In this document: piece after piece, positions 21,607 through 39,327 of the stretch
Numbering within the stretch: position 1 is the first letter of the stretch
How the letters are laid out: each line of letters starts with the position of its first letter
DNA from: Rhodothermaceae bacterium
Lineage (GTDB): Bacteria; Bacteroidota; Rhodothermia; Balneolales; Cyclonatronaceae
DNA: 44,975 bases
Direction of reading: 5' to 3'
NCBI GenBank assembly: GCA_020201275.1
Contig: JAIVHB010000130.1
Location: 1 to 44,975, forward strand
The notes under the pieces: generated by a model
Told to the model about the DNA's origin: nothing
Seen by the model: the letters and a program-made list of their open reading frames with translations, nothing else
The model's database searches: none
Program-made: the position numbers and the translations under genes

Positions 21607-22320
21607 TTAAAAAAGTGGTATAGTAAGTGAATGTTTTATAGCACAGGCCAGGTTGTCATGAAATGCCGAAGTCCCGGCATCACTCCCCACAACCAATTGC
21701 TGGTTTATCTCAAGCTCTAAACCTGCATATTCTCCGGGGCCAAAACTTTTCCGCAGTGCTGTAGCATGCCCGTCGGCTTTTCCGGTATAGGGATAATTCA
21801 TTCTGGTTCTGATGTGAGGCGAATGTTGTTTAAGGGCTTCTGCTATTCTTACTGCCACGTCCCTTTCACTTTTTCTGGCCGGATCATATAGCAGACCTGT
21901 ATCCGCATTCCTGATCTTTCCGTCAACTTCTGGCGAGAACGTATGAACCGAAAAATGAATAACGAATCCCCCCTGCTGAATTATTCTGCTGATATGGCTG
22001 AATACCTTTTTCCGGAACGGGTAATAGTACTCTTCCAGAATGTGCTCTCTTTTTGCCTTTGGCAGGGCGTCGGTAATGTCGGAGAATAGTGCCCGGTTAT
22101 GTTCAGACCGGTTCAGCTCAACAACCAGCCGGCTGATTTCAGAAAAAAAAACCGGGTATCCCAATTTTTCAGAGAGACCCAGTGTGAGGTCAAGGGCTCC
22201 GGGATCCCAGCCCCTGTGCGACTTCAACCGTTCACTGTAACCTTCAAACAGGGATTTGAGGTCATCAGGTACCTCATACCCGCCGTGTTCACAAGTCAGT
22301 ATTACAGATGGGGCTGTCAT
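21607..22320 (-). CDS. N-formylglutamate amidohydrolase family protein
   Basis: The 237-residue protein has LTCEHGGYEVP at residues 8-18, an SRLVVELNRSEHN block, FVIHFSVHTFSP with likely metal-binding His, and GLELEINQ near the end. These are the family landmarks of N-formylglutamate amidohydrolase, a zinc enzyme that hydrolyses an amide on an acidic amino acid. Here no histidine-degradation genes are adjacent. The gene is last in a four-gene operon with two amide-forming ligases and a peptidase, and overlaps the preceding gene by four bases. It may trim or recycle the operon's product rather than act on formylglutamate. The family is secure; the role is inferred. Confidence 0.9.
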   Translation of the reverse strand: MTAPSVILTCEHGGYEVPDDLKSLFEGYSERLKSHRGWDPGALDLTLGLSEKLGYPVFFSEISRLVVELNRSEHNRALFSDITDALPKAKREHILEEYYYPFRKKVFSHISRIIQQGGFVIHFSVHTFSPEVDGKIRNADTGLLYDPARKSERDVAVRIAEALKQHSPHIRTRMNYPYTGKADGHATALRKSFGPGEYAGLELEINQQLVVGSDAGTSAFHDNLACAIKHSLTIPLF

Positions 22321-23543
22321 GACCTGAACATTTCGCCCTTACGGAGACAGGAACAGAGTTCTTCATAAACAGTAAAAATTTTTGCGCTAACGGGATCTGT
22401 TCCAAGTGCCTTAATGATCCGGCCGGACAGTGTACCTTCATTCAGGATGGTTTTCAATGCCTTCAGGTGATTCAGGTCTGAAATATGTACTGCATCCAGA
22501 AGGTGAGCCCAGAGGTCTGTTGCTCTTACCGGCCCGGAGTTCAACCCGAATAAATTAAGGTACTCCTGATCTGTTATGAGGCATTCACCGCCCTTTTCCG
22601 CTACTTCGGTGAGCAGGCTGCTCAGACGTCCGGCCGGCCATTTCTTCTGCTCAGCCAATCCGCTCCATTTTCCTTCGGTCAATGCCTTTAGTACTGCTAT
22701 TATTAGATCGGCAACCGCCAGATCTGCAACAGGGCATTCCTGGATATCCAAAATCCGTATTTCAATGGCCATCCGGTCGAAGCGTGCAATTGCACCCCGT
22801 GAATTAAGCCACTCATACTGAAGAATACCCTCCGGATCAAAGGGTCTGATATCATCGTAGATACCTTTCAGCAACTCATTCTCATATTCCACGCGTGTAT
22901 ATACAGGTTCAGGAATAACTTGACCGGTAACCGATGGTATCTTAATGGAATTTGTACGATACACAGCAAGCCGGTTATCATGCAAACCCGTTAATTTGTT
23001 GTCCATTACCGGGGATGCAGCTGTTAGGGCCGGCATTACAGGCATCAGAATTCGAATGGCGGCGTGGAGCCTTCCGAACTCTTCATCATCAGCAAACGGA
23101 AGATTGATGTGGGTACTCTGCAGATTCGACCATCCGTGGCCCCTGCAGTCGAATATTCGGTTGTAAGCCTCGTAAATTGGGTTGTATTCGTGAGGCCACA
23201 GCCTCATTTGTGAAAAAGGGTCCATCCAGGGGTGCATGGCACCGGGCATGAGCCTGCCACCAATACCGGCCAGGATGCCGTTAACACGGTTCACCTGCGA
23301 TTGGAACCTGGAAGCGAGGTCATCAAGTTTATTTGCCGGACCATTGGTTTTGAATTCGATAACATGTAATGCCAGCTCATTATTCCAGGCCATATCCCCA
23401 AACTCAACTTCAGTTTCATAGGAACCGGAAACCTCTCTGAGCAGTTCATCGGCAACAGGATAAACATCGAGGGTGTCGGACCTTACTATCATGTACTCCA
23501 GTTCTACACCGAAGCCCTGAAAAAGCCCTAATGGTTTCGGCAT
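22317..23543 (-). CDS. GCS2-family carboxylate-amine ligase (glutamate-cysteine ligase-like)
   Basis: The 408-residue protein starts with FGVELEYM, where Glu14 and Glu16 match the metal-binding glutamates of the GCS2 (YbdK / plant-type glutamate-cysteine ligase) fold. Later landmarks are the WNNELALHVIEFKT segment, the GWSNLQSTHINLPF block with conserved His, and an IEIRILDIQECP strand. These ligases join an amine to an activated side-chain or alpha carboxylate with ATP. The substrates are unknown. The ATG overlaps the stop of the ATP-grasp gene by one base. Together with that neighbour it gives the operon two different ATP-dependent amide-bond-forming chemistries. Confidence 0.88.
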   Translation of the reverse strand: MPKPLGLFQGFGVELEYMIVRSDTLDVYPVADELLREVSGSYETEVEFGDMAWNNELALHVIEFKTNGPANKLDDLASRFQSQVNRVNGILAGIGGRLMPGAMHPWMDPFSQMRLWPHEYNPIYEAYNRIFDCRGHGWSNLQSTHINLPFADDEEFGRLHAAIRILMPVMPALTAASPVMDNKLTGLHDNRLAVYRTNSIKIPSVTGQVIPEPVYTRVEYENELLKGIYDDIRPFDPEGILQYEWLNSRGAIARFDRMAIEIRILDIQECPVADLAVADLIIAVLKALTEGKWSGLAEQKKWPAGRLSSLLTEVAEKGGECLITDQEYLNLFGLNSGPVRATDLWAHLLDAVHISDLNHLKALKTILNEGTLSGRIIKALGTDPVSAKIFTVYEELCSCLRKGEMFRS

Positions 23544-25015
23544 CAGTATTTGATCCTTCCCTCTTTGCGTGCCTCAATCCGGTTCAGGAATACCTGCATA
23601 ATCTTCAGATAGAGTTCATCTTTGAGTATAAGGTCTTCAACACCCGCATCCAGATTGGGGTTGTCGTTTACCTCAATTACAACGCATTTGCTGCCCGACT
23701 CTTTAATGTCTACACCGTAGAGACCATCTCCAATCAAATTGGCAGCCTTAAGGGCGGTTCTGACCACATTGGCCGGTGCTATCTCAACAGGAACTGTCTC
23801 ATAATTACCATAACTGAAGCCACCCTTGGCATCCGTTTTTATAATCTGCCAGTGCTTTCTTGCCATGAAATAGCGGCAGGCGTATAACGGTTTTCTGTCG
23901 ATGATTCCAATCCTCCAGTCGAACTCGGTTGGCATGAACTCCTGGGCTATAACCAGTTCGGATTTATCCAGAAACCGTTCAGATTCAACCATCATCATCT
24001 GACGGTCGGTAACTTTGACCACGCCCTGTGAAAAAGAACCATCAGGCTGCTTGAGAATGAGCGGGAAACCAAGATCCGTTATCACCTTTTCGATGTTGTC
24101 TTTGTGCAGGATCATCGTTTTGGGTGTTGCCACATCGTACCGGTTGAGCAGTTCAGAAAGATAGACCTTATTGGTGCAACTGAGAATTGAGTCCGGGTCG
24201 TCGAGTACTACGAGACCCTCCGCCGATGCCCTTCGTGCAAACCGGTAGGTATAGTGATTTACATTGGTGGTTTCACGGATGAAGAGTGCGTCAAATTCAG
24301 CAAGCCGGGCGTAGTCTTCCCGGGTAATAAGCTCTGTTCCGATACCAAGCTGCTCAGCCGCCTTCATGAATTTGCCCAGGGCCTTATCATCCGATGGGGG
24401 TGCTTTCTCCTTTTTATTGTGAAGTATGGCCATATCATACCGTGTCGCAGTTTTTTTTGGGATGACCTTTCGCTTTCCGGCGAAATAATCCTTAGCCGCT
24501 GCTACAATGAAATCGCGGTGATCTTCAGGAATCTCGGCTGCGGCAACCGGTCCCAGGCTTTGCAGTTGCCAACGCTGGCCATTGTTTGTGAAATGCGCCC
24601 TTAAAAGCGGCGCCTGGAATAAGTTGAAAAGGTGCGAGCTGAGTTTATCATACTTTTTCGCAAGATTCCGACCGAAATAGATGCTCAACACAAATTTGTT
24701 CGATTTTATCGGAGTGAGATTCTGCTGTATCAGGTCGTCGAGTTCATCGGATACTATACGAACAATGGTTTGCAGCTTCATATCCTGTATGGTTGATATT
24801 CCAGGAATTGGCTTATGGCCCCTCGCCGCTGCCAATAGTGAAACATAGTAACCTGTACTTTGATACCGGTACGAACGGCAAAGGTTAAAAACCTTGGTAT
24901 TCTTCAAATCCAGATAAAAAGGATCTGTGAGATAGCTTCGTGCTGCCACAACCATCACATTGGGAAGCTCAAAAGGCCAGTCGGCTGGATTATTTACCAC
25001 AATGATTATCTGCAT
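23543..25015 (-). CDS. RimK-type ATP-grasp ligase with RLAN N-terminal domain
   Basis: The 490-residue protein has an N-terminal region (about 5-170) resembling the RimK-like ATP-grasp N-terminal domain. A PreATP-like section and an ATP-grasp domain (about 285-470) follow. Visible ATP-grasp features are the ATP-binding Lys in PLILKQPDGSFSQGV, the IAQEFMP adenine-region strand and the magnesium site VIEVNDNPNLD. RimK enzymes add amino acids, often glutamate, to a carboxylate through an acyl phosphate. The acceptor here is unknown. The ATG lies one base after the stop of the peptidase gene. The length and the extra N-terminal domain distinguish it from the ribosomal S6 modification enzyme. Confidence 0.9.
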   Translation of the reverse strand: MQIIIVVNNPADWPFELPNVMVVAARSYLTDPFYLDLKNTKVFNLCRSYRYQSTGYYVSLLAAARGHKPIPGISTIQDMKLQTIVRIVSDELDDLIQQNLTPIKSNKFVLSIYFGRNLAKKYDKLSSHLFNLFQAPLLRAHFTNNGQRWQLQSLGPVAAAEIPEDHRDFIVAAAKDYFAGKRKVIPKKTATRYDMAILHNKKEKAPPSDDKALGKFMKAAEQLGIGTELITREDYARLAEFDALFIRETTNVNHYTYRFARRASAEGLVVLDDPDSILSCTNKVYLSELLNRYDVATPKTMILHKDNIEKVITDLGFPLILKQPDGSFSQGVVKVTDRQMMMVESERFLDKSELVIAQEFMPTEFDWRIGIIDRKPLYACRYFMARKHWQIIKTDAKGGFSYGNYETVPVEIAPANVVRTALKAANLIGDGLYGVDIKESGSKCVVIEVNDNPNLDAGVEDLILKDELYLKIMQVFLNRIEARKEGRIKY

Positions 25016-25016
25016 A

Positions 25017-25730
25017 TCAAATTACAGGATTCTTCTCCAGGATTAAAAGATTTGCGTCGTACGTAATTATACCCAGTAAGATGGATGATATAAGCCGGTT
25101 CATGGTTACATCGTAGTACTGGGATTTAAATGCCGGGTTATGCTGTAGCGGATCGGCCACCGTAACTGAACGATCCGGTTGATTATATCCGGAAAGAACA
25201 ACAAAATGACCGGTAGGGTAACCTCTGATGTCATCATAATCCATATTGGGCCCGAATTCACGTGCACAATTATACAGATAGGTAGCATTGAGGCCTGTGA
25301 GAATCGGAATTGATTTCTTCAGGTACTTTCTTATCAGACCTGCAGTCAGGTCTTTCATGCGCAACCGCCCCCCCAGGCGCAGAAATTCAATGTAGGCTTC
25401 TGTGGCAAAATGCAGTTTTTCGTCTGTCTTCGCACGAAGTTGTGCCTCCAGTTTTTTCCGGATTTCTTTCCGCCTGAGATTGAACCACGTCGGGTCGAAA
25501 ACCTGAAGATTGTATGTGTAGATAGTTGCACTGTAACCTCTTTTAAGGGCATGGATGGCAAGTAAAACCGCCAGTGTACCACCTTCTTCAAGGGAAGGGA
25601 CTTCCTCCATGATTTCATCCAGATCTACATAGTCCTCGTAGAAATTGTAAACCGAGTGGAGGCAAGTGGGGCCGCAAGAGTAATCATCGGGCTGAGGGAG
25701 AATCTCCAGTTCTAATTGATTTATCATCAT
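25017..25730 (-). CDS. C39-like (papain-fold) cysteine peptidase family protein
   Basis: The 237-residue protein begins with a catalytic-Cys motif DDYSCGPTC (Cys19). The His motif GHFVVLSGYN lies near residue 174 and VADPLQHNP supplies a likely Asp. This is the C39-like / papain-like fold. No signal peptide or transporter domain is present, so it is probably cytoplasmic. Members of this fold cleave or form amide bonds. It is the first gene of the amidoligase operon, transcribed from a candidate promoter at 25770-25777. Its coupling to the ligases suggests action on their product, perhaps release or transfer. The family is well supported; the reaction is not. Confidence 0.87.
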   Translation of the reverse strand: MMINQLELEILPQPDDYSCGPTCLHSVYNFYEDYVDLDEIMEEVPSLEEGGTLAVLLAIHALKRGYSATIYTYNLQVFDPTWFNLRRKEIRKKLEAQLRAKTDEKLHFATEAYIEFLRLGGRLRMKDLTAGLIRKYLKKSIPILTGLNATYLYNCAREFGPNMDYDDIRGYPTGHFVVLSGYNQPDRSVTVADPLQHNPAFKSQYYDVTMNRLISSILLGIITYDANLLILEKNPVI

Positions 25731-25743
25731 TAAATTTAATCAG

Positions 25744-25777
25744 CGTTTACGTGCTATACAATGGGATCGCAAACGTA
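25744..25777 (-). promoter_or_regulatory. Candidate promoter and inverted repeat for the amidoligase operon
   Basis: On the minus strand, a perfect -7 element TACGTTTG occupies 25777-25770. The -33 element is weak (ATTG at a 16-base spacing). The predicted start near 25763 gives a 33-base 5' UTR. Two imperfect complementary arms, CGTTTACG at 25744-25751 and CGCAAACG at 25768-25775, flank the start site and differ by one base. The arrangement fits a repressor site, but the evidence is pattern only. Confidence 0.35.
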
Positions 25778-25860
25778 ATTAAAAACATAATTACAATCAT
25801 TCAGATACTGTGCACACCTTTATCGTTTAAGGGTTTGAAAGAAGATCAGTGCCAGCAGTA

Positions 25861-26390: not shown

Positions 26391-27548
26391 TTAGCTAAAA
26401 ACTTTCTTGATGCGTTTAAAGAAACCTTCAGAAGCATCATGCTCAGTAGCAGGATCAAAGTGTTCCGACTTTTCCAGCTCTGTAATCAGTTTTTTTTCCT
26501 GGGCAGAGAGTTTGCCGGGTATGTACACATTAACACGAACGTACTGATCGCCGGTTCCATTGCCATTGAGACTGATTATTCCTTTTTCCCGCATTCTCAG
26601 AAGTTTTCCCGGCTGCGTGCCGGCATCAATTTTGAGCTTGGCCTTACCTTTAAGTGTGGGAACCTCTACTTCTGTACCGAGAATGGCATGCGGAACACTG
26701 ATTCTTAAATCGTATATGATATTATTACCATCACGTTCAAAATATTTATGTTCTTCTTCCTCAATCAGAACTATCAGATCGCCGGCTGGTCCGCCCCGGA
26801 GACCGGCGTTACCCTGGCCGCGAAGTGTAATGTAATTTCCCGATGTTACACCGGCGGGTATTTTAACTGATACCGTTTCTTCGCCTTTTACCCTGCCCTG
26901 ACCGCTGCATTTTTTGCATTTATTCCGAATTACCCGCCCTTCGCCCATACAGGTCGGGCAGGGCTGCACATTTACAAACTGACCGAACATAGTGCGTGAT
27001 ACCTGACGAACTTCGCCCATGCCGTTACATGTGGAGCATGTCATGAAGTCGTCGTTCGACTCAGCACCCGTTCCATTGCATGAGTCGCATTTGATCTGCT
27101 TTTTTACCTTCAGCTTTTTTTCCACACCGAATGCAATTTCACTCAGGGTGAGTGTGAGGCGCATTTTCATATCTTCACCGGGTCGACCAGCTCCTCTTCT
27201 GCGTCCTCTGCCGCTGCCACCCGCCCCGCCGAAAATATCTCCACCGAATATGTCGCCGAAGCGGCTGAATATATCCTCGAAATTGATATTCTGGAAGTCA
27301 GGTTCCTGGTAACCTCCAGAATGCAGACCGGCATGCCCGAACTGATCGTATCGGGCCCTTTTGTCGGGGTCTTTCAGAACATCAAATGCTTCGGCTGCTT
27401 CTTTGAATAGTTTTTCAGAATCCGGATTGTCTTTATTCCGGTCAGGATGAAACTCCATCGCTTTCTTGCGGTAGGCCTTTTTTATCTCATCGGCCTCTGC
27501 GTTTTTGCCGACACCAAGAACTTCGTAATAATCTCTTTTTTTACTCAT
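26391..27548 (-). CDS. dnaJ: Chaperone DnaJ
   Basis: The 385-residue type I J protein has the J domain at residues 1-70 with HPD at 34-36. A Gly/Phe-rich stretch follows near 75-125, including a run of Gly and Arg. Four zinc-binding CxxCxGxG-type repeats are present: CDSCNGTG, CSTCNGMG, CPTCMGEG and CKKCSGQG. The C-terminal substrate-binding domains are complete. It stimulates DnaK ATPase activity. It starts 5 bases after grpE ends, within hrcA-grpE-dnaJ. dnaK is not in the window. Confidence 0.97.
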   Translation of the reverse strand: MSKKRDYYEVLGVGKNAEADEIKKAYRKKAMEFHPDRNKDNPDSEKLFKEAAEAFDVLKDPDKRARYDQFGHAGLHSGGYQEPDFQNINFEDIFSRFGDIFGGDIFGGAGGSGRGRRRGAGRPGEDMKMRLTLTLSEIAFGVEKKLKVKKQIKCDSCNGTGAESNDDFMTCSTCNGMGEVRQVSRTMFGQFVNVQPCPTCMGEGRVIRNKCKKCSGQGRVKGEETVSVKIPAGVTSGNYITLRGQGNAGLRGGPAGDLIVLIEEEEHKYFERDGNNIIYDLRISVPHAILGTEVEVPTLKGKAKLKIDAGTQPGKLLRMREKGIISLNGNGTGDQYVRVNVYIPGKLSAQEKKLITELEKSEHFDPATEHDASEGFFKRIKKVFS

Positions 27549-27553
27549 TGTAT

Positions 27554-28177
27554 TTATTCGCTCACGATTACTTTAGCATGGCGAATTACACGGTCGCCGA
27601 TTTTATATCCATCTTCCAATACCTGCAGAACGATGTCGCTGCCGGTATTTTTATCTTCAGGCTTCTGCCGCATGAGTGCATCGTGCAGGTTTACATCGAA
27701 TGGTACATTCACCTGATTAATAATTTCGATACCATATTGATTGAGAGTATTCGCCATTTTGTTGGCTACCAGTTCTATACCTTTGAGGTATTTCTCATCC
27801 ATGCCGGTTTCCTTCAAGGCAAGAACTGTTCGCTGAAGATCGTCGTTTACGGGTAAAAATTGCTGCAACGCGTCGATACGTGCATCCTCAAACAATTTCA
27901 TGCGTTCGTTCTGAACACGTTTCCGCATGTTTTCAAATTCGGCAACTTTTCTGAGCAGCTGATCATTCTTCTGGTCAATCTGGGCTATAAGATTCGCGAT
28001 TATTTCGTCTTTGGGATCAATTGATTCATCAGTCCTGATCTCATTCTCAATGGCTTCAGGTTGAGTATCGGTACTGTCTGTCTCCCTTTCCGCTGTGTTA
28101 GTTTCTTCTCCGGTATGATCCTTCAATGTGTCCTCTGGTTTTGGATTTGTTTTTGCAGTTCTCTTTTTCATTTTCAT
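27554..28177 (-). CDS. grpE: Nucleotide exchange factor GrpE
   Basis: The 207-residue protein has an acidic, low-complexity N-terminus of about 60 residues and a long helix near 60-130 (AEFENMRKRVQNER). The C-terminal beta domain has the conserved NPFDPNLHEA-like segment VPFDVNLHDAL. GrpE releases ADP from DnaK. The ATG at 28177 overlaps the hrcA stop by four bases (ATGA), so the two are translationally coupled. A second ATG two codons later is also possible. The length is typical of the phylum. Confidence 0.96.
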   Translation of the reverse strand: MKMKKRTAKTNPKPEDTLKDHTGEETNTAERETDSTDTQPEAIENEIRTDESIDPKDEIIANLIAQIDQKNDQLLRKVAEFENMRKRVQNERMKLFEDARIDALQQFLPVNDDLQRTVLALKETGMDEKYLKGIELVANKMANTLNQYGIEIINQVNVPFDVNLHDALMRQKPEDKNTGSDIVLQVLEDGYKIGDRVIRHAKVIVSE

Positions 28178-29223
28178 GTATCATATTTTACTCTGTTGAA
28201 ACGGTCTGCAAGCTGATCAACAAGGGCAACCATTCTTGCGTAATCCATTCTGGTAGGCCCGACAAGGCCTATGGTACCTCTTATGCTGCCGATGTTATAG
28301 TTCGCAGATACAACGCTGCACTGTTCAATTTGTTGAAGTCTGTTTTCCGTGCCGATTCGCACCCTGACGGCATCCCTTGATTCGTCCAAATTCTCTTCAA
28401 GCAAATGTACAATCAGGTCTTCTTTCTCAAGTAATTCAATAATACCCCGGTAATTGCTCAAATCGCTGAACTCTGGCTGAAGCGCTATATACTCTACGCC
28501 GCCAAAATGAAATTTGCGGACCTGGCGGTCTTCAAAAATGCTGTCGGCCCGGTCAATGAAGATCCGGATTAAACCCGTGTCATCCTCTTTCTCATACTCA
28601 GCCAGCATCTCCCCAATTTTATTGCTGATTTTGTTGAGCCTGAGCCCGCTCAGCTTTTCATTCAGTACACGGGCAACCTTTTCAAGGTTTTCACGATGTA
28701 TACTGGTCTGCGCTTCGATTGTGAGCGTGCGCATAAAGCCGCTGTCTATCGTCAGCACTATCAGGATGCGGGTGGAGCTGAGCTCGATGAGTTCCACCCG
28801 CCTGAATATGCCATCGGCCAGTTTTGGTGTAATGGTAACAGCGAGTAGATTTGATAGTCTGGCAAGCAACCTCGCAGCAGACTGAACCGCATCGTCAAAA
28901 TCACTAACAAGAGTCTCGCTGAATTCATCAAGCACCTTCTGCTCTTCGTTGGTGAGTTTCGATACCTGCATAAGGGAATTCACGTAGAACCGATAGCCCA
29001 GTTCGGTTGGTACTCTCCCGGAAGAGGTATGTGGATGGTCCAGATATCCCTTCAGCTCCAGATTGTTCATGTCGTTACGGATGGTCGCTGAACTCACATT
29101 CAGATTGTGCTTCTCAATGAGAGTTTTTGATGCAATAGGATTAGCAGTAACGATAAAATTCTGGATGATATACTGAAGAACTTCGCGCTCCCTGTTCGTA
29201 AGATCGACGTGGTCCCGCTGCAT
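28174..29223 (-). CDS. hrcA: Heat-inducible transcription repressor HrcA
   Basis: The 349-residue protein has an N-terminal winged helix (residues 1-75) with the conserved SSATIRNDMNNLE and HPHTSSGRVPTELGYRFYV segments. The central and C-terminal regions are the GAF-like HrcA core. HrcA represses chaperone operons by binding CIRCE (TTAGCACTC-N9-GAGTGCTAA). No CIRCE-like element is present in the 81 bases upstream, so this operon may not be under HrcA control. An AT-rich palindrome occurs there instead at 29272-29287. Confidence 0.96.
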   Translation of the reverse strand: MQRDHVDLTNREREVLQYIIQNFIVTANPIASKTLIEKHNLNVSSATIRNDMNNLELKGYLDHPHTSSGRVPTELGYRFYVNSLMQVSKLTNEEQKVLDEFSETLVSDFDDAVQSAARLLARLSNLLAVTITPKLADGIFRRVELIELSSTRILIVLTIDSGFMRTLTIEAQTSIHRENLEKVARVLNEKLSGLRLNKISNKIGEMLAEYEKEDDTGLIRIFIDRADSIFEDRQVRKFHFGGVEYIALQPEFSDLSNYRGIIELLEKEDLIVHLLEENLDESRDAVRVRIGTENRLQQIEQCSVVSANYNIGSIRGTIGLVGPTRMDYARMVALVDQLADRFNRVKYDT

Positions 29224-32161: not shown

Positions 32162-35100
32162 TGAGACAATAATGTTAAACCGGATATCCTGATCGGTTCT
32201 CGGGAATATATTACTGGATTTAGGCATTAGCTTGAAAAAGGTATATTCAAGATTCATTTTAACCGTCTGTGAGAATTCATAACCGATCAATGGTGCAATC
32301 TGAATTCTGTTGTCGCCCCTCACGTTGGGTTCTCCCGGGTTGTATAATGACTGGTCGGGTATGAGATCATTCTGATCGAGTTGCAGTACCTGCTGCAAAT
32401 CTGTGTTCAGAAGAAATGTGTTGGTAACATCCTCATTATATGAAACCGAGAGCCTGAGGTTCAATGTGTTCTGGAACCGGCGCATGAATGGCAGACGGAA
32501 ACCCCTCTTGCTGTAGTTGGCAGAAAAACGCACACCGCTCGAGTTTCTTTCAATCACATTAGAGTTCGACAGACTGAATGTGGTGATCTGGCTTCTGTCG
32601 TACTGCAGGCTTGTGGTTAATCCCGACTTCCAGGTAAGGCTTAGCTGTATGAACGGACTGAAGCTTCGCTCGAGGGTAATTGACGAGGCCTCAAATTCTG
32701 GTCTGGTATCAAGAACCTGGAAGTTACCTACCCTGCGGTCTATCCCGGCGCCGAAATCAGGATTAAATGCCCACTGCCGCCAAAGATGTACGAACGCCTG
32801 AAATCTTCTTCGAGAGTACGTCGACCAAGCACAGTTCGCCCATCCTGGTTGCCCGTCTGATCATCGATGATTGTACTGCCGGGACGGATGTCGTCGAAAG
32901 CAGTCTGAAGTTGTGATCTGAAAAAGCTTTCGTAACCGCCGCCAAATGCCCATACTGTGGCATTGATTCCACCAGTCTGGTTTATCTGTGTGGCAATGGA
33001 ATCTGAGAAAATTGTCTGGGTGAAATTGTTGTTTTCATTCCAGCCGGTCGACCAGTCAAGATCTATGGTGATATCGCGGAAAGGCTGCATTCTTGACCTA
33101 AGACTCAGATCATCGGTATTGTTGAAAAAACGGGTAACATTGATGGCTGATAACTCGTCTGGCCTTACAATCTGATTTATTGGAATGTTGTCCTGTATCC
33201 CGATTCTGTAAAGAAACGTTGGTGAAAAACTTGCGTCGTTTATATCGTTGAACATATTTAGCGGACTGGTTCCACCGTCGTAGCCACCCTGTCGGGATGT
33301 CTGGCCATGGGTATACGTGAAATCGAATGATTGAAAGCTGACAAGACCCAGCATGAATCGTCTTCCATAAAACATTACGTTCTCTGTCATGGTAAACGAT
33401 TCCTGTTCAGCCTGCTGGTTCTCAGTCCGGGCTGTATTCCGTGAAGCTTCTCCTCGCCCTACACCATCGCCATGCTCCTGTTCACGGTCCCTCTGTTCCC
33501 TTTCCCGTTGCTTCTGCTGCTCTCTGACCCTTTTCCTGCGTTCACGTTCACGTGTTTCCTCCTGGTCAGCCTGAAGAGACCTGTCATAAAACGGGATTTT
33601 CTTGAGCAGCTCCTGAAACCGAATATTGGATGTCTGGCTGAGATTGAGTGAATTGCTGAGGTTGGCACCAAGTCCCGACCCCTGTGCTGTATTTTGCCAG
33701 TTGAATCCCCCTCTGTATGTTGCCGAATAGGTAATCCAGTTCAGGGAACTGATCCTGTTCAGGCGTGGACGAAAACTTGCATTATAACTCTCATTATACG
33801 TGTCGAGACGGGGCTTTAGGGTGTCTCCTGTTATGATATCATTGAATACATCAAAGGTCGACCTGGTGCGAAATACCAGACTGTCAGCCGTTTCGGTTAC
33901 ACCAAGATTGGCGAGATTGTGGGAAGAATTAATATTCATCCCGAGTTGCACGGGCGGTGATATGTTGTAGGTGATCGCGAACTGTTTTGTCCAGTTGAAC
34001 GTATGCTGCTGCTGAAGCGGGAACGGATCCTGGGCGTCAAACGACCGCCTGCGCGATTCATTATACCTGCGGTTAAGGCCGGTTTGCATGGTAATATTGG
34101 AAGGAACATACGCCAGTCGAATACCTGATATGAGATTTAACACAGGCATGTCTTCCAGAAAAAAGAGCGGTCGTACCGTACTGATATTGGGAATTGACAG
34201 GTTGTAGCCAAGCCCCAAACGGTAGTTCCAGTCATCACTGAATTCCTGGGTCGGGCTGCTCCGGCTTGACGTGCTGTAATTGTAGTTGAAATTGAGATTA
34301 TCAACTGTATACTTCAGCAGGTTTGATTCGGAATTACGCTTGGTCAGATTTGAAATATTAAATGTATAGTTTTCATCTAATGTCTGAATTTCATCAAGCT
34401 TTTCATCAATAAGTCGTTCACGCTCCGTCTCATCAGGCTCGGCTGCTTCAACAGCATCACGGAAGTCGGAAAATCTGATGTCACCCTCTCTTGGAAGATA
34501 TCTCGGTGTACTAACACTTCTGCGAACCGAGAACGAAACCGGCATGTTCCATCCATAGCGTTCAGGAACCAGCTTATGCACATTAAAACTTGACGAAAAA
34601 CTGTAGCTCTCCTGATCGTTCATATTCCGCTCATTGATCCGGGATTCCAGAGCCCCGTAACCATCGGTACTTCGGTTGTACTGGGCATTTACACTGGCAA
34701 CATCAGCCATGTCAACCCGGGCGTTGAATTTGGCAGCCCAACCTTTCCGGTCATCAAATCCCGATACTCTGAGCTCATTCACCCAAACCTCGGCATCGAG
34801 CGACGGCACCCCCCGTAACGGCTGCTGGCCGGGTTGTGCCGTTTTGGCATCAAACGGGTTGCGAATACCGATTCCTATTTCAGTTATCTGACCCAGCGAC
34901 GGATTACCCCTCATGGCAAGCACTGTACCAGGTGGCGCATCAATAACGATATCCCTTCGCTCATAAATATCGTCCGGGGCTACCTCATCAAGGTTTCTGA
35001 GTTGTTTGAGCTGATTAAAACTTGAGAGAACCAGGTTCATACTATTCTCGTCGGGCAACCAGATAAGTTCGGTATCCAGGTCGATGGCAGCCTGATCATC

Positions 35101-38100
35101 TGTACTGAGCTGGGTAAAACGGTGCGTGGTATCTGTTGGAGTAAGGGGCTGGCGGTATTCGTAGTAATTGTTCTCGAGGTTGGTACCCATCCGCACCACA
35201 AGTTCAATATCTTCCCGTTTGCTGTAACCTTCACCGTGTACAAACATCCTCATATTGGAATAGTTCAGCAGGTCAAGTCCCGCTGGATAAAAACGACGCA
35301 CCAGCCTGGTGTCGCCCGGCCTGAGATCCAAAACACTCAATGCCATGGACTGTTCATTCTGTTGTATGGTTTCCTGCTGGCCCCTGACCTGTGAGCGAAT
35401 GGCACCTCTGGGAATCCGGTATGGAACTGGCTGCCTGTTGGAATTTTCCTCAATATTGATGGTTGAAACTTCAAAAAGAGTATTGATATTGGCTGCATTT
35501 CCAATCTCCTCAGCCTTCCTCCACTGGTTTCCCACGAGTTCAAGTGTTGCGAACCGTAATGTAAAAGGTTCACGGTAACCACTCATCCAGATCCGGATAT
35601 GGGTAACCTGCTGCAGATTTTCTATGTTTCCTATCTGCCTGATAATATCCCTTAAAGGAATCCGCACCTGGTACCAGGTATTCCACTGCTGTCCACCGTC
35701 AACTTTGTCAACAATGTAGCTGTTGCCGATGTCCAAAGAACTAGTGTCGGCCGGGTTCCAGTTCAGTTCATACTGGAAAAATGAATTCTCAAGGTTAACC
35801 ACCGCCGGGTTAAGAAGCCCTTCGCTGTCGGGCCTGTTCGTTACAGCCCTGGAGGCGCCGCTGGTCTGCGCATTGCCCTCATAAAAGCCGTACATCCTGT
35901 GAAAACGCTCATGTAATGGTAAATTCCTGACGGCAGGGTCATTGAAATAGACAAACCTGTCATTTGACGGGTCACTTAAAATGCGCTCAAAAGCGGCAGG
36001 ATCATCCGAGTAGACCTGTTGCATGCGGTCTATGAAATCTGCAAATAGTACCTGCTCGCCGAAACCATCGATTCCACCGGTGCTAAGCGCTCCATCAAGG
36101 CCGACATCCTCAAGTTCAATATTTGCTACCGAAAACTGTCCGTCTTGCTCAACGGGTGAAGCAATTACATACGATCTGGGTTGATCAGGCCTGTCAGGGC
36201 GCAGGTTATTGGAGCGGTCGGCCAGGCCATCTTCCGTATTATTCAGATTGTTCGGTATAACATCCTCGTTTACGGTTCCGATATCGATGTAGATCGAACC
36301 ATCATAATCAAAGATATCCTGACCGGTAGGGGCGCGTCCATCGGGCAGAATGGACTGTACCCAGAATTCCAGAAATTCGACATTGTTCTGGGTAAGGTCA
36401 CTTAGCCCGCCAGGAAGCACGGTTGTCATTCCACCCCACATCGTCTCCGGTTCATTCTCCAGCTGATCCCGCAGATCCCTGTTGTAGTTATACGGGCCAC
36501 GATCGCGGGGATTATAGTATATATCAAGCGTCTGCAGCTCCTGCTCGTCAATGCGTACCTCCCTGTTTGGAAAAACATCACGAACTGCTACCGGCAGCGA
36601 TTCTACGGTTGGGTTAGCACCTGAAGTACGTATGAGCGCACTTGAAATACTATACCACGAAAACTGGGCGCGAAGGTCCGACCTTCTTATTCGTTCGGGT
36701 ATCGATTGACCAGCCATTGTCAGGTCCATATCAATTCCCGGAAGAGCGTATGGCGCTGCAGCCAGTGACCAGCGGCCCGGACCCATCAGGCTGATACTTG
36801 TTTTGGCTCCCTCAAATTCATCAATGAAGGCGAGCCCGTTTTCTTCATCAGGAAATAACCTGTTATCATTTATTGCCCGCCTCACCGCATTGGTCTGAGA
36901 TACGCTGGGTCTGAGCTGAGCCCACTCACCAGCCAGAGATATGCGTGATGGCGACCGGGTCTGAATCAGCGGAAGCCAGTCGATGGCCCTGGTTAACCAC
37001 GGTGCTTCAAAATTTGCCGTCGCGTCGAGGCCGATGGTTGTATTGCTGATGGGTTCATCACCGATGGGGATTTTATCCTGCAATGGTCTTTCATTAAGGC
37101 GGAAATAGGTTCCCCCAACCGCGATTTGGTCCGACACATTGTACTGAGCCCGCAACCCTGTAAACGTGGTTTGCTGAATCTGCAGCAGCTGCTGACTTTC
37201 GTAATCAATCCTGATCTCCTGACCCGGTGTCAGGTATCGCCTGTTGGTAATGATGATGGATCCGGTTATAAAATCAACCTCATAATCTGTGCCTTCACCA
37301 AGCTCCACTCCATTGGCCGTAACCCTTACCGAACCCTCAACGAGTCCGATACCGAGGAAATAACTGTCGGAGACGCCGCCCCTTGTCTGACCTTTTATTC
37401 TGTAGATGCTGTTTTTTGAGTTTTGCGATGCAGTCTGAATGGTTGATGTATAGAGTTCGCTGAAAACCAGCCTGTCACGTGCCTCCTGCTTCGCTTCCTC
37501 CGAAAGAGCAGAGCTGTTGATTAAATCCGCTATTCGTTGACCGAACGGCTCCAGGTAGGGAAATATGATTCTTCCATTAGCAGGATCAAGAGTGCCTGTA
37601 TTGAAATCGACGGTATTGTCGGGCCCCGGGTCACCCTGCGGGCCTACCCTGTCGAGGCCAAGGTCACGTAACAGAATATTATTGATACCCGGCAGGTTGG
37701 ACTGATCCGTTGTGGCTCCGGTATAAAAAATGTCGAGTTCAAGCGACTCCCTGGTCAGATTGTTGGCGTTCAGGGAGTAGATGTTCCGCATAGTGAGATC
37801 CCATGCCCTTGTGCTGGGTGATTGATTCTGCGGCCTTAAAAGTTTCAGGAAAATTCGCTGATTGTCGCCCTGATTTATATCGCCAACATAGATAATATTA
37901 CCAGACGGATCCCTGTAGCTGAACGAAACAGCCAGTGCCTGCCTCGGTTCCAGCCGCCGGCCCAGCGATATATAGCCCAGATCCTGGTTTACCGTATAGT
38001 CTACACCCTCAATAAGAGGAATGAAATAACCCTGGGCCATTTCACTGGACTCAACTCCGAGCTCAGCTTCCGACACCGATGTACTTGGATCCCTGAACTG

Positions 38101-39327
38101 ATCCAGAAATACTTCGGAAAAAGGATCAAAATCTTCATCTGGCAGGAAAAAAGACCCGTCGGGCGCTGTTCGCACACCCTTATCCAGTAATGCAACACCC
38201 AGGCGTTGACCGACTTCTGATTGAGACGACACATTCAGAAGATATACTTCAATATTGATGATATTGAACAACCTTCTAAGAACAACCGGGTCTGCCATAG
38301 CATCTTCAAATTCCTGCCGTGCATAGAAATCGAGGAAAAAGTGGCGGTCGTCTTCATAGTTGTTTGGGGCAACATTCAGGTCGCGTGTCTGCGAACCGCC
38401 GCTTATGGTCTGAGACTGCCCCTTACCCTCCTGCTGCGACAGTACCGATGTAACTTCCAGTGCCCCGATCCTTGCTTTCGATTTAATTCCAAAAAGAGAG
38501 CCGCCACCCCTTATCAGGGAGTTGCCCGTTTCCATGGAAACGTTACCGAGCTCAACTGTCTGAAGAATTTCATCATCATAACCCTGGTAAACGATATTGA
38601 GACGGTTTTCAAAGTCAAATGTACGCTCCGTATCCCAGTCAGTACGGATGGTAAGTTTATCACCAATAGTACCCTGTATGTTGAGTTTAAGGTTCTGATT
38701 GAATAATGGATCAACACGCCGCTGCTGATTGGGAGGTATTGCAGGATCTTCGGTTTCCCGTATACTAGCTCCCAGATTCATATTGGCCGTACCGGTAACC
38801 CTCAAATTCACTTCGGGCTTGCCGAATATCGTGGTGAAAGCGGAGCTTCTGCCACCGGGAATTGCAATCCGAAAATCGAGCAGGCCGCGGCCCAGATCCC
38901 GTCGTCTTTCAGCTTCACGCACAAGTCTGCGCCAGTTAGCCGTTTTGGCAGACCGCATATTCAGATTCGACATGGTTTCGAAATCATAGAAAACCTGCTC
39001 ACTTGCCGGCATGTTCAGAATCCGGCGCTGAACAAGATAGTTGCCCAGTGAATCTTTTTGAATAACCATCCTGTCTTCATTCATCCTTATATGCAGCAGA
39101 GGAGAAATACGGGAGGGAAAAGGAGAAATGATCCAGTTGTGCCCAACCGAACGAAAGGGGACAATACGGGGCAGTGTATCGGCCTGGGCTGCATCTGCCT
39201 GAGAGCGGCTGACCTGGCGGTTGCGAGTACCCTGCTGGGCAACAGCAATTTCACACAGCATCATGAATGCTATTATAAGCAGGGGAAGGCCGGCCTTCGC
39301 AGATAACATTAGCTTAACGAGTTGCAC
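32147..39327 (-). pseudogene. sprA: Type IX secretion outer-membrane translocon SprA, with a frameshift near the 3' end
   Basis: The 5' frame encodes 2195 residues from a GTG at 39327, or from an ATG at 39309, which begins a better signal peptide (MLSAKAGLPLLIIAFMML). The protein shows the long SprA/Sov pattern of tandem beta-rich segments, including RNEDN-like repeats and the VNELRVSGFDDRKGWA block. SprA forms the very large beta-barrel channel of the type IX system used for gliding and adhesins. The frame stops after IFGGSGH, but homology continues in another frame (AFNPDFGAGIDRRVGNFQVLD) to the stop at 32147-32149. A single base lost near 32775-32782 would restore about 2,400 residues, the usual length. 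A charged Glu/Arg-rich insert lies near residues 1912-1970. Confidence 0.92.

Follow-up and report, generated by a model that had tools for sequence, protein, structure and literature searches.

The window analysed here, a stretch of 44,975 nucleotides forming one contig of a Rhodothermaceae genome of 3.4 Mb, carries an operon of four open reading frames on its minus strand, in the order C39-like peptidase, RLAN-RimK ligase, GCS2 ligase and amidohydrolase of the N-formylglutamate amidohydrolase (FGase) family (Table 1). The genes are separated by +1, -1 and -4 bases, and the ORF coordinates agree in this with the initial annotation, whose end at 25777 takes in about 47 bases upstream of the start of the C39-like gene (25730). 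The gene identities proposed there also hold, each protein scoring above the curated Pfam cut-offs: 40.8 bits for Peptidase_C39_2, 167 bits for RLAN (residues 25-171 of the ligase), 36.7 bits for RimK (residues 282-457), 97.5 bits for GCS2 and 76 bits for FGase. None of the four falls into a named NCBIfam equivalog, the nearest models (YbdK, RimK family and HutG) all remaining far below cut-off. Among named relatives the nearest is a Balneolaceae MAG, whose ligase is 91% identical.

Table 1. Features of the four-gene locus, in positions of the window
Feature	Coordinates	Strand	Length	Pfam
FGase-family amidohydrolase, Atu2144 (2odf) type	21607..22320	-	237 aa	PF05013
GCS2-fold carboxylate-amine ligase	22317..23543	-	408 aa	PF04107
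RLAN-RimK ATP-grasp ligase	23543..25015	-	490 aa	PF14401 + PF08443
C39-like papain-fold cysteine peptidase	25017..25730	-	237 aa	PF13529
Upstream gap, candidate promoter region	25731..25860	-	130 bases	

In the C39-like protein, Q13, C19, H175 and D193 correspond to the catalytic tetrad of the C39 domains of ComA and PCAT and are invariant in an alignment of 28 sequences; the profile match to ComA (3k8u) aligns the C, H and D. Foldseek matches its AF2 model (pLDDT 77) to PCAT1, ComA, PeiR and phytochelatin synthase, so that the predicted fold is papain-type and nearest to that of the ComA/PCAT peptidases, phytochelatin synthase being among the lower-ranked matches. The protein thus shares fold and Q-C-H-D tetrad with the C39 domains of the ComA/PCAT1 exporters, but stands alone, without ABC transporter domains and without a precursor peptide.

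The ligase bears its RLAN domain N-terminal to a RimK/LysX-type ATP-grasp region (about 195-465) in which K283, K322, D436, E448 and N450 are conserved. Its profile matches in the PDB are RimK, LysX and other alpha-L-glutamate ligases, and its ATP-grasp half is closest to these and related enzymes. Members of the RimK/LysX-type families form an acyl phosphate and join amino acids. The catalytic half and the conserved residues are held in common with RimK, LysX and MptN; the operon ligase differs from them by its additional RLAN domain, by its neighbours and by scores below the subfamily cut-offs (81 bits against 143 for TIGR00768, 31 of 331 for the S6 ligase equivalog). Its predicted structure is a poor model (pLDDT 57, pTM 0.47).

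GCS2 enzymes use ATP to couple a carboxylate with an amine. In the operon's GCS2 protein E14, E16, H136, H145, R249, E261 and R263 are invariant among 25 sequences, and the catalytic residues are intact in both ligases, on which the initial annotation had made its reading depend; more generally, active-site positions vary little or not at all in any of the four proteins. The nearest NCBIfam model is TIGR02050 of the YbdK family (49 bits against a cut-off of 176), and the distant PDB match is YbdK itself (1r8g). The genome holds a further GCS2 gene, which by eye resembles YbdK and is split across two contigs (L137 on C222 and L138 on C6); some 1 kb from its C222 fragment there is a glycosyltransferase frame that looks, again by eye, like BshA.

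The FGase matches the profile of 2odf at E=1.8e-36 and keeps E11, H12, H122, H126, E202 and E204 invariant, whereas its score for the HutG equivalog TIGR02017 is 23.9 bits for a cut-off of 278.75. It is the only FGase of the window's genome, and no AstE/AspA deacylase was found in the operon carriers searched. At one other locus (L130:3138-4760, minus strand) the FGase lies in a 540-aa frame, uninterrupted by a stop, with about 310 extra residues that resemble by eye a separate exported protein; this is either a fusion or a frame error.

The gene upstream of the operon, thioredoxin-like and 130 bases away, is outside the conserved set. Further upstream on the same strand lies a probable hrcA-grpE-dnaJ heat-shock cluster, recognised by eye (26391-29223), and beyond it a gene for a 2195-aa SprA-type protein of gliding motility and type 9 secretion (32740-39327, minus strand). 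The initial annotation had given the operon its own promoter. Among 37 homologous operons the upstream gene is divergent in 14 and co-directional at less than 50 bases in only 7; such mostly divergent or well separated neighbours fit an own promoter, which is plausible. On the other hand the sigma-70 scan returned no site in the upstream gap and no excess in the region, and the one match in the gap to TAnnTTTG, the Bacteroidota-type -7 motif, is not kept in the 91% relative L031.

The search for a fifth conserved partner by neighbour clustering turned up families in at most 8 of 44 loci, at scattered positions, and no family of small ORFs occurs in more than 3 of the 44 flanks. There is thus no sign of an adjacent carrier, exporter or precursor, as had been noted for this locus alone, and the preference expressed at that time for a free metabolite, or for the modification of a distant substrate, fits this picture. 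A RiPP or graspetide cluster with an unseen precursor was rejected, since no small ORF is conserved beside the ATP-grasp gene in these 44 flanks. An anti-phage defence system was likewise rejected, none of the four proteins having a PADLOC match. A phage origin was rejected too: PHROGs matched the ATP-grasp protein only, and the phage matches span just its ATP-grasp half.

Within the window's own phylum 45 of 396 genomes contain RLAN. Two further draws, taken from the phyla of a Spirochaetota MAG and of a Thermodesulfobacteriota (Desulfovibrionaceae) MAG, gave it in 23 of 149 and in 7 of 198 genomes respectively, the phylum labels outside the window's own group resting on named MAGs (L033, L034) as centres of the draws. 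The domain also occurs on plasmids of Proteobacteria, including one of Legionella adelaidensis with RLAN, GCS2 and FGase in order. The complete order C39, RLAN-RimK, GCS2, FGase is found at 29 loci, the window included, in at least three phyla; C39-RLAN-GCS2 is found at 11 and RLAN-GCS2-FGase at 5. The conservation of gene order in relatives is thereby established, and with it the four-gene operon is confirmed as real, its recurrence in 29 loci of several phyla being far beyond chance.

All four genes are under purifying selection: between the window and L031 the dN/dS values are 0.05, 0.04, 0.09 and 0.16, dS being near saturation for the first genes. The tree distances of the four proteins are correlated (Mantel r 0.54-0.73, with none of 999 permutations as high), which is expected under vertical descent as well as under joint transfer. 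In the RLAN tree sequences of different phyla are intermixed, which makes some horizontal transfer likely; two sequences from the Thermodesulfobacteriota-centred draw (G519 and G544), for example, fall with the window in a set of seven with a support of 97. This points to the horizontal transfer of a self-sufficient unit.

The composition of the neighbourhood was then counted over 69 non-duplicate RLAN-RimK loci. GCS2 adjoins the ligase in 45 of them and a GNAT in 18, fused to the ligase in 10 and adjacent in the others; 6 loci have neither and none has both. C39 accompanies the ligase in 40 of the 45 GCS2 loci, so that a second amide-forming enzyme and a peptidase are both linked to RLAN-RimK. 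FGase occurs in 34 of these 45 loci and in none of the 24 others. On the RLAN tree the GCS2/GNAT label changes about 3 times, the presence of C39 twice, and that of FGase is gained or lost about 9 times. As the switch between GCS2 and GNAT needs so few changes, and related loci are counted as independent, the Fisher p-values for these associations overstate independence and are descriptive only. Three loci of the Spirochaetota-centred draw (L125, L126 and L127) carry RLAN-RimK with no GCS2, FGase, GNAT or C39 nearby. In two others (L115 and L116) RLAN-RimK adjoins a GNAT, with a same-strand ketoacyl synthase III gene nearby (called in L115); these are possibly a lipid- or polyketide-linked variant.

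These counts qualify the claim that the four genes form one coupled unit. Their order is indeed conserved across phyla, but FGase is an accessory part of the operon, C39 is sometimes absent and GCS2 is replaceable by a GNAT. FGase is missing genome-wide in 12 of the 13 other genomes checked that lack it in the operon, the exception (G146) having one unlinked copy, and the four genomes with RLAN-GCS2-FGase have no C39 relative anywhere. As C39 goes with both the GCS2 and the GNAT types (six loci of the latter type carry it as a DUF3335/C39-like peptidase fused to the GNAT), we assign it to the product of the ligase. FGase, restricted to GCS2 loci, is assigned to GCS2, which suggests that it cleaves the bond made by GCS2. 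Since GCS2 and GNAT stand in for one another next to this ligase, their common target would seem to be the amino group of its substrate or product, and we infer that the two may be alternative amine-capping modules for a peptide-like product of RLAN-RimK. GNATs acylate amines from acyl-CoA, not from a carboxylate and ATP as GCS2 enzymes do, so that the equivalence of their roles is deduced from position only.

Iyer and co-workers reportedly introduced RLAN in 2009 and predicted amidoligase neighbourhoods of this sort. The operon has in common with these reported neighbourhoods a RimK-like ATP-grasp enzyme with RLAN, and linked GCS2/COOH-NH2 ligases, GNATs and peptidases. A passage of a later paper from the same group (PMC4431377) refers to earlier reports of ATP-grasp ligases operonically linked to COOH-NH2 ligase or GNAT families. 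On these two grounds we file the operon under a known, uncharacterised kind: it belongs to the already predicted amidoligase operons and is not a new kind. What is new here, as far as the accessible literature could be searched, is the modular structure, i.e. the mutual exclusion of GCS2 and GNAT and the dependence of FGase on GCS2, of which we found no discussion in that literature. Nor did the same search return a functional study of RLAN, or of RimK with GCS2, C39 or FGase.

We propose, with a confidence that we would put at about even, that the operon encodes a self-contained pathway which, independently of ribosome and tRNA, turns common metabolites into a small capped peptide or amide and recycles this product. 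RLAN-RimK would activate a carboxylate as acyl phosphate and join it to an amine. GCS2 would form a further amide bond, this one at an amino group, giving an aminoacyl, possibly gamma-glutamyl, cap; in the sister systems a GNAT domain would take its place, acylating from acyl-CoA. The C39-like peptidase would process or hydrolyse the product of RLAN-RimK, and FGase would hydrolyse the cap put on by GCS2. The functions attributed to the four proteins are predictions; in the same way we infer the substrates, the order of the steps, the preference for a free metabolite over a tag and the recycling direction of C39 and FGase.

The same genomic picture would result if the operon tagged a widely conserved protein. 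RLAN-RimK and GCS2 might attach amino acids to one of the cell's proteins, much as RimK modifies ribosomal protein S6, and C39 and FGase remove them: the nearest solved relatives of the ATP-grasp half include RimK S6-glutamate ligases, a cysteine peptidase is linked nearly always and no substrate gene is adjacent. We nevertheless find tagging unlikely, as the scores for TIGR00768 and for the S6 ligase equivalog are well below cut-off, GCS2 families are generally known to act on small amines, and the unit appears to cross phyla without a partner protein. The product could also be a compatible solute made under salt stress, like the free dipeptide of the NAGGN pathway (asnO, ngg and an M42 peptidase; TIGR03103), with GCS2 or GNAT as the N-capping enzyme. 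N-acetylglutaminylglutamine synthetase combines a GNAT and an ATP-grasp ligase in one protein, the linked peptidase gives both systems a ligase-plus-peptidase logic, and the Balneolaceae MAGs that are nearest among the named relatives probably have a saline origin. However, the NAGGN pathway has no full-length RLAN homology, no GCS2 and no FGase; the window's genome has no match to TIGR03103, a model also absent from the best 25 families of the GNAT-RLAN-RimK protein; the matches on Sinorhizobium/Ensifer plasmids are about 26% identical and do not extend beyond the ATP-grasp half; and no amidotransferase is linked. We regard a solute of this type as quite improbable.

The same two enzyme folds, GCS2 for GshA and ATP-grasp for GshB, make glutathione in some bacteria and plants, and the C39 model also matches the phytochelatin synthase Alr0975, so that a glutathione-like thiol with C39 as a transpeptidase might be imagined. 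Yet of the phylum's 396 genomes 385, that of the window included, have bshC; bacillithiol is probably already made, and on this near-universal presence a substitute thiol was rejected as the main reading. The operon enzymes are moreover far below the GshA and GshB equivalog cut-offs (37 of 249 bits for gshA_cyano, 27 of 272 for the glutathione synthase PRK05246), and the best structure matches of C39 are the ComA/PCAT peptidases, which leaves the thiol with very little probability. That the C39-like protein is a synthase, forming an amide by transpeptidation as has been proposed for CtaG in closthioamide assembly, would be permitted by papain-like acyl-enzyme chemistry, which allows transfer to amines, and CtaG variants are among its structure matches; but the similarity to these is weak (E values near 2e-3 and 7e-3, TM 0.31-0.33) and no carrier protein is linked, and we consider such a role very unlikely. 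At last, the FGase might be a histidine-pathway N-formylglutamate deformylase that sits in the operon by chance, for the genome has a urocanase and no FGase but the operon's. Its linkage to GCS2 in 34 loci and its score for HutG, less than a tenth of the cut-off, make this very improbable, the more so as FGase is wholly missing from three relatives in the same family that have the other three genes.

For the capped peptide or amide that we prefer, a more precise form can be put forward, with distinctly less assurance than the pathway itself: the product may be an N-capped di- or tripeptide, previously unknown and widespread, with either an amino acid as cap, added by GCS2 and removable by FGase, or an acyl group added by a GNAT. 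One ligase backbone would then serve with two exchangeable cappings across phyla. A four-enzyme pathway whose gene order persists in several phyla may well represent a bacterial metabolite or modification that is common yet so far unseen, and from the exchange of GCS2, with or without FGase, for GNAT the chemistry of one step can be predicted.
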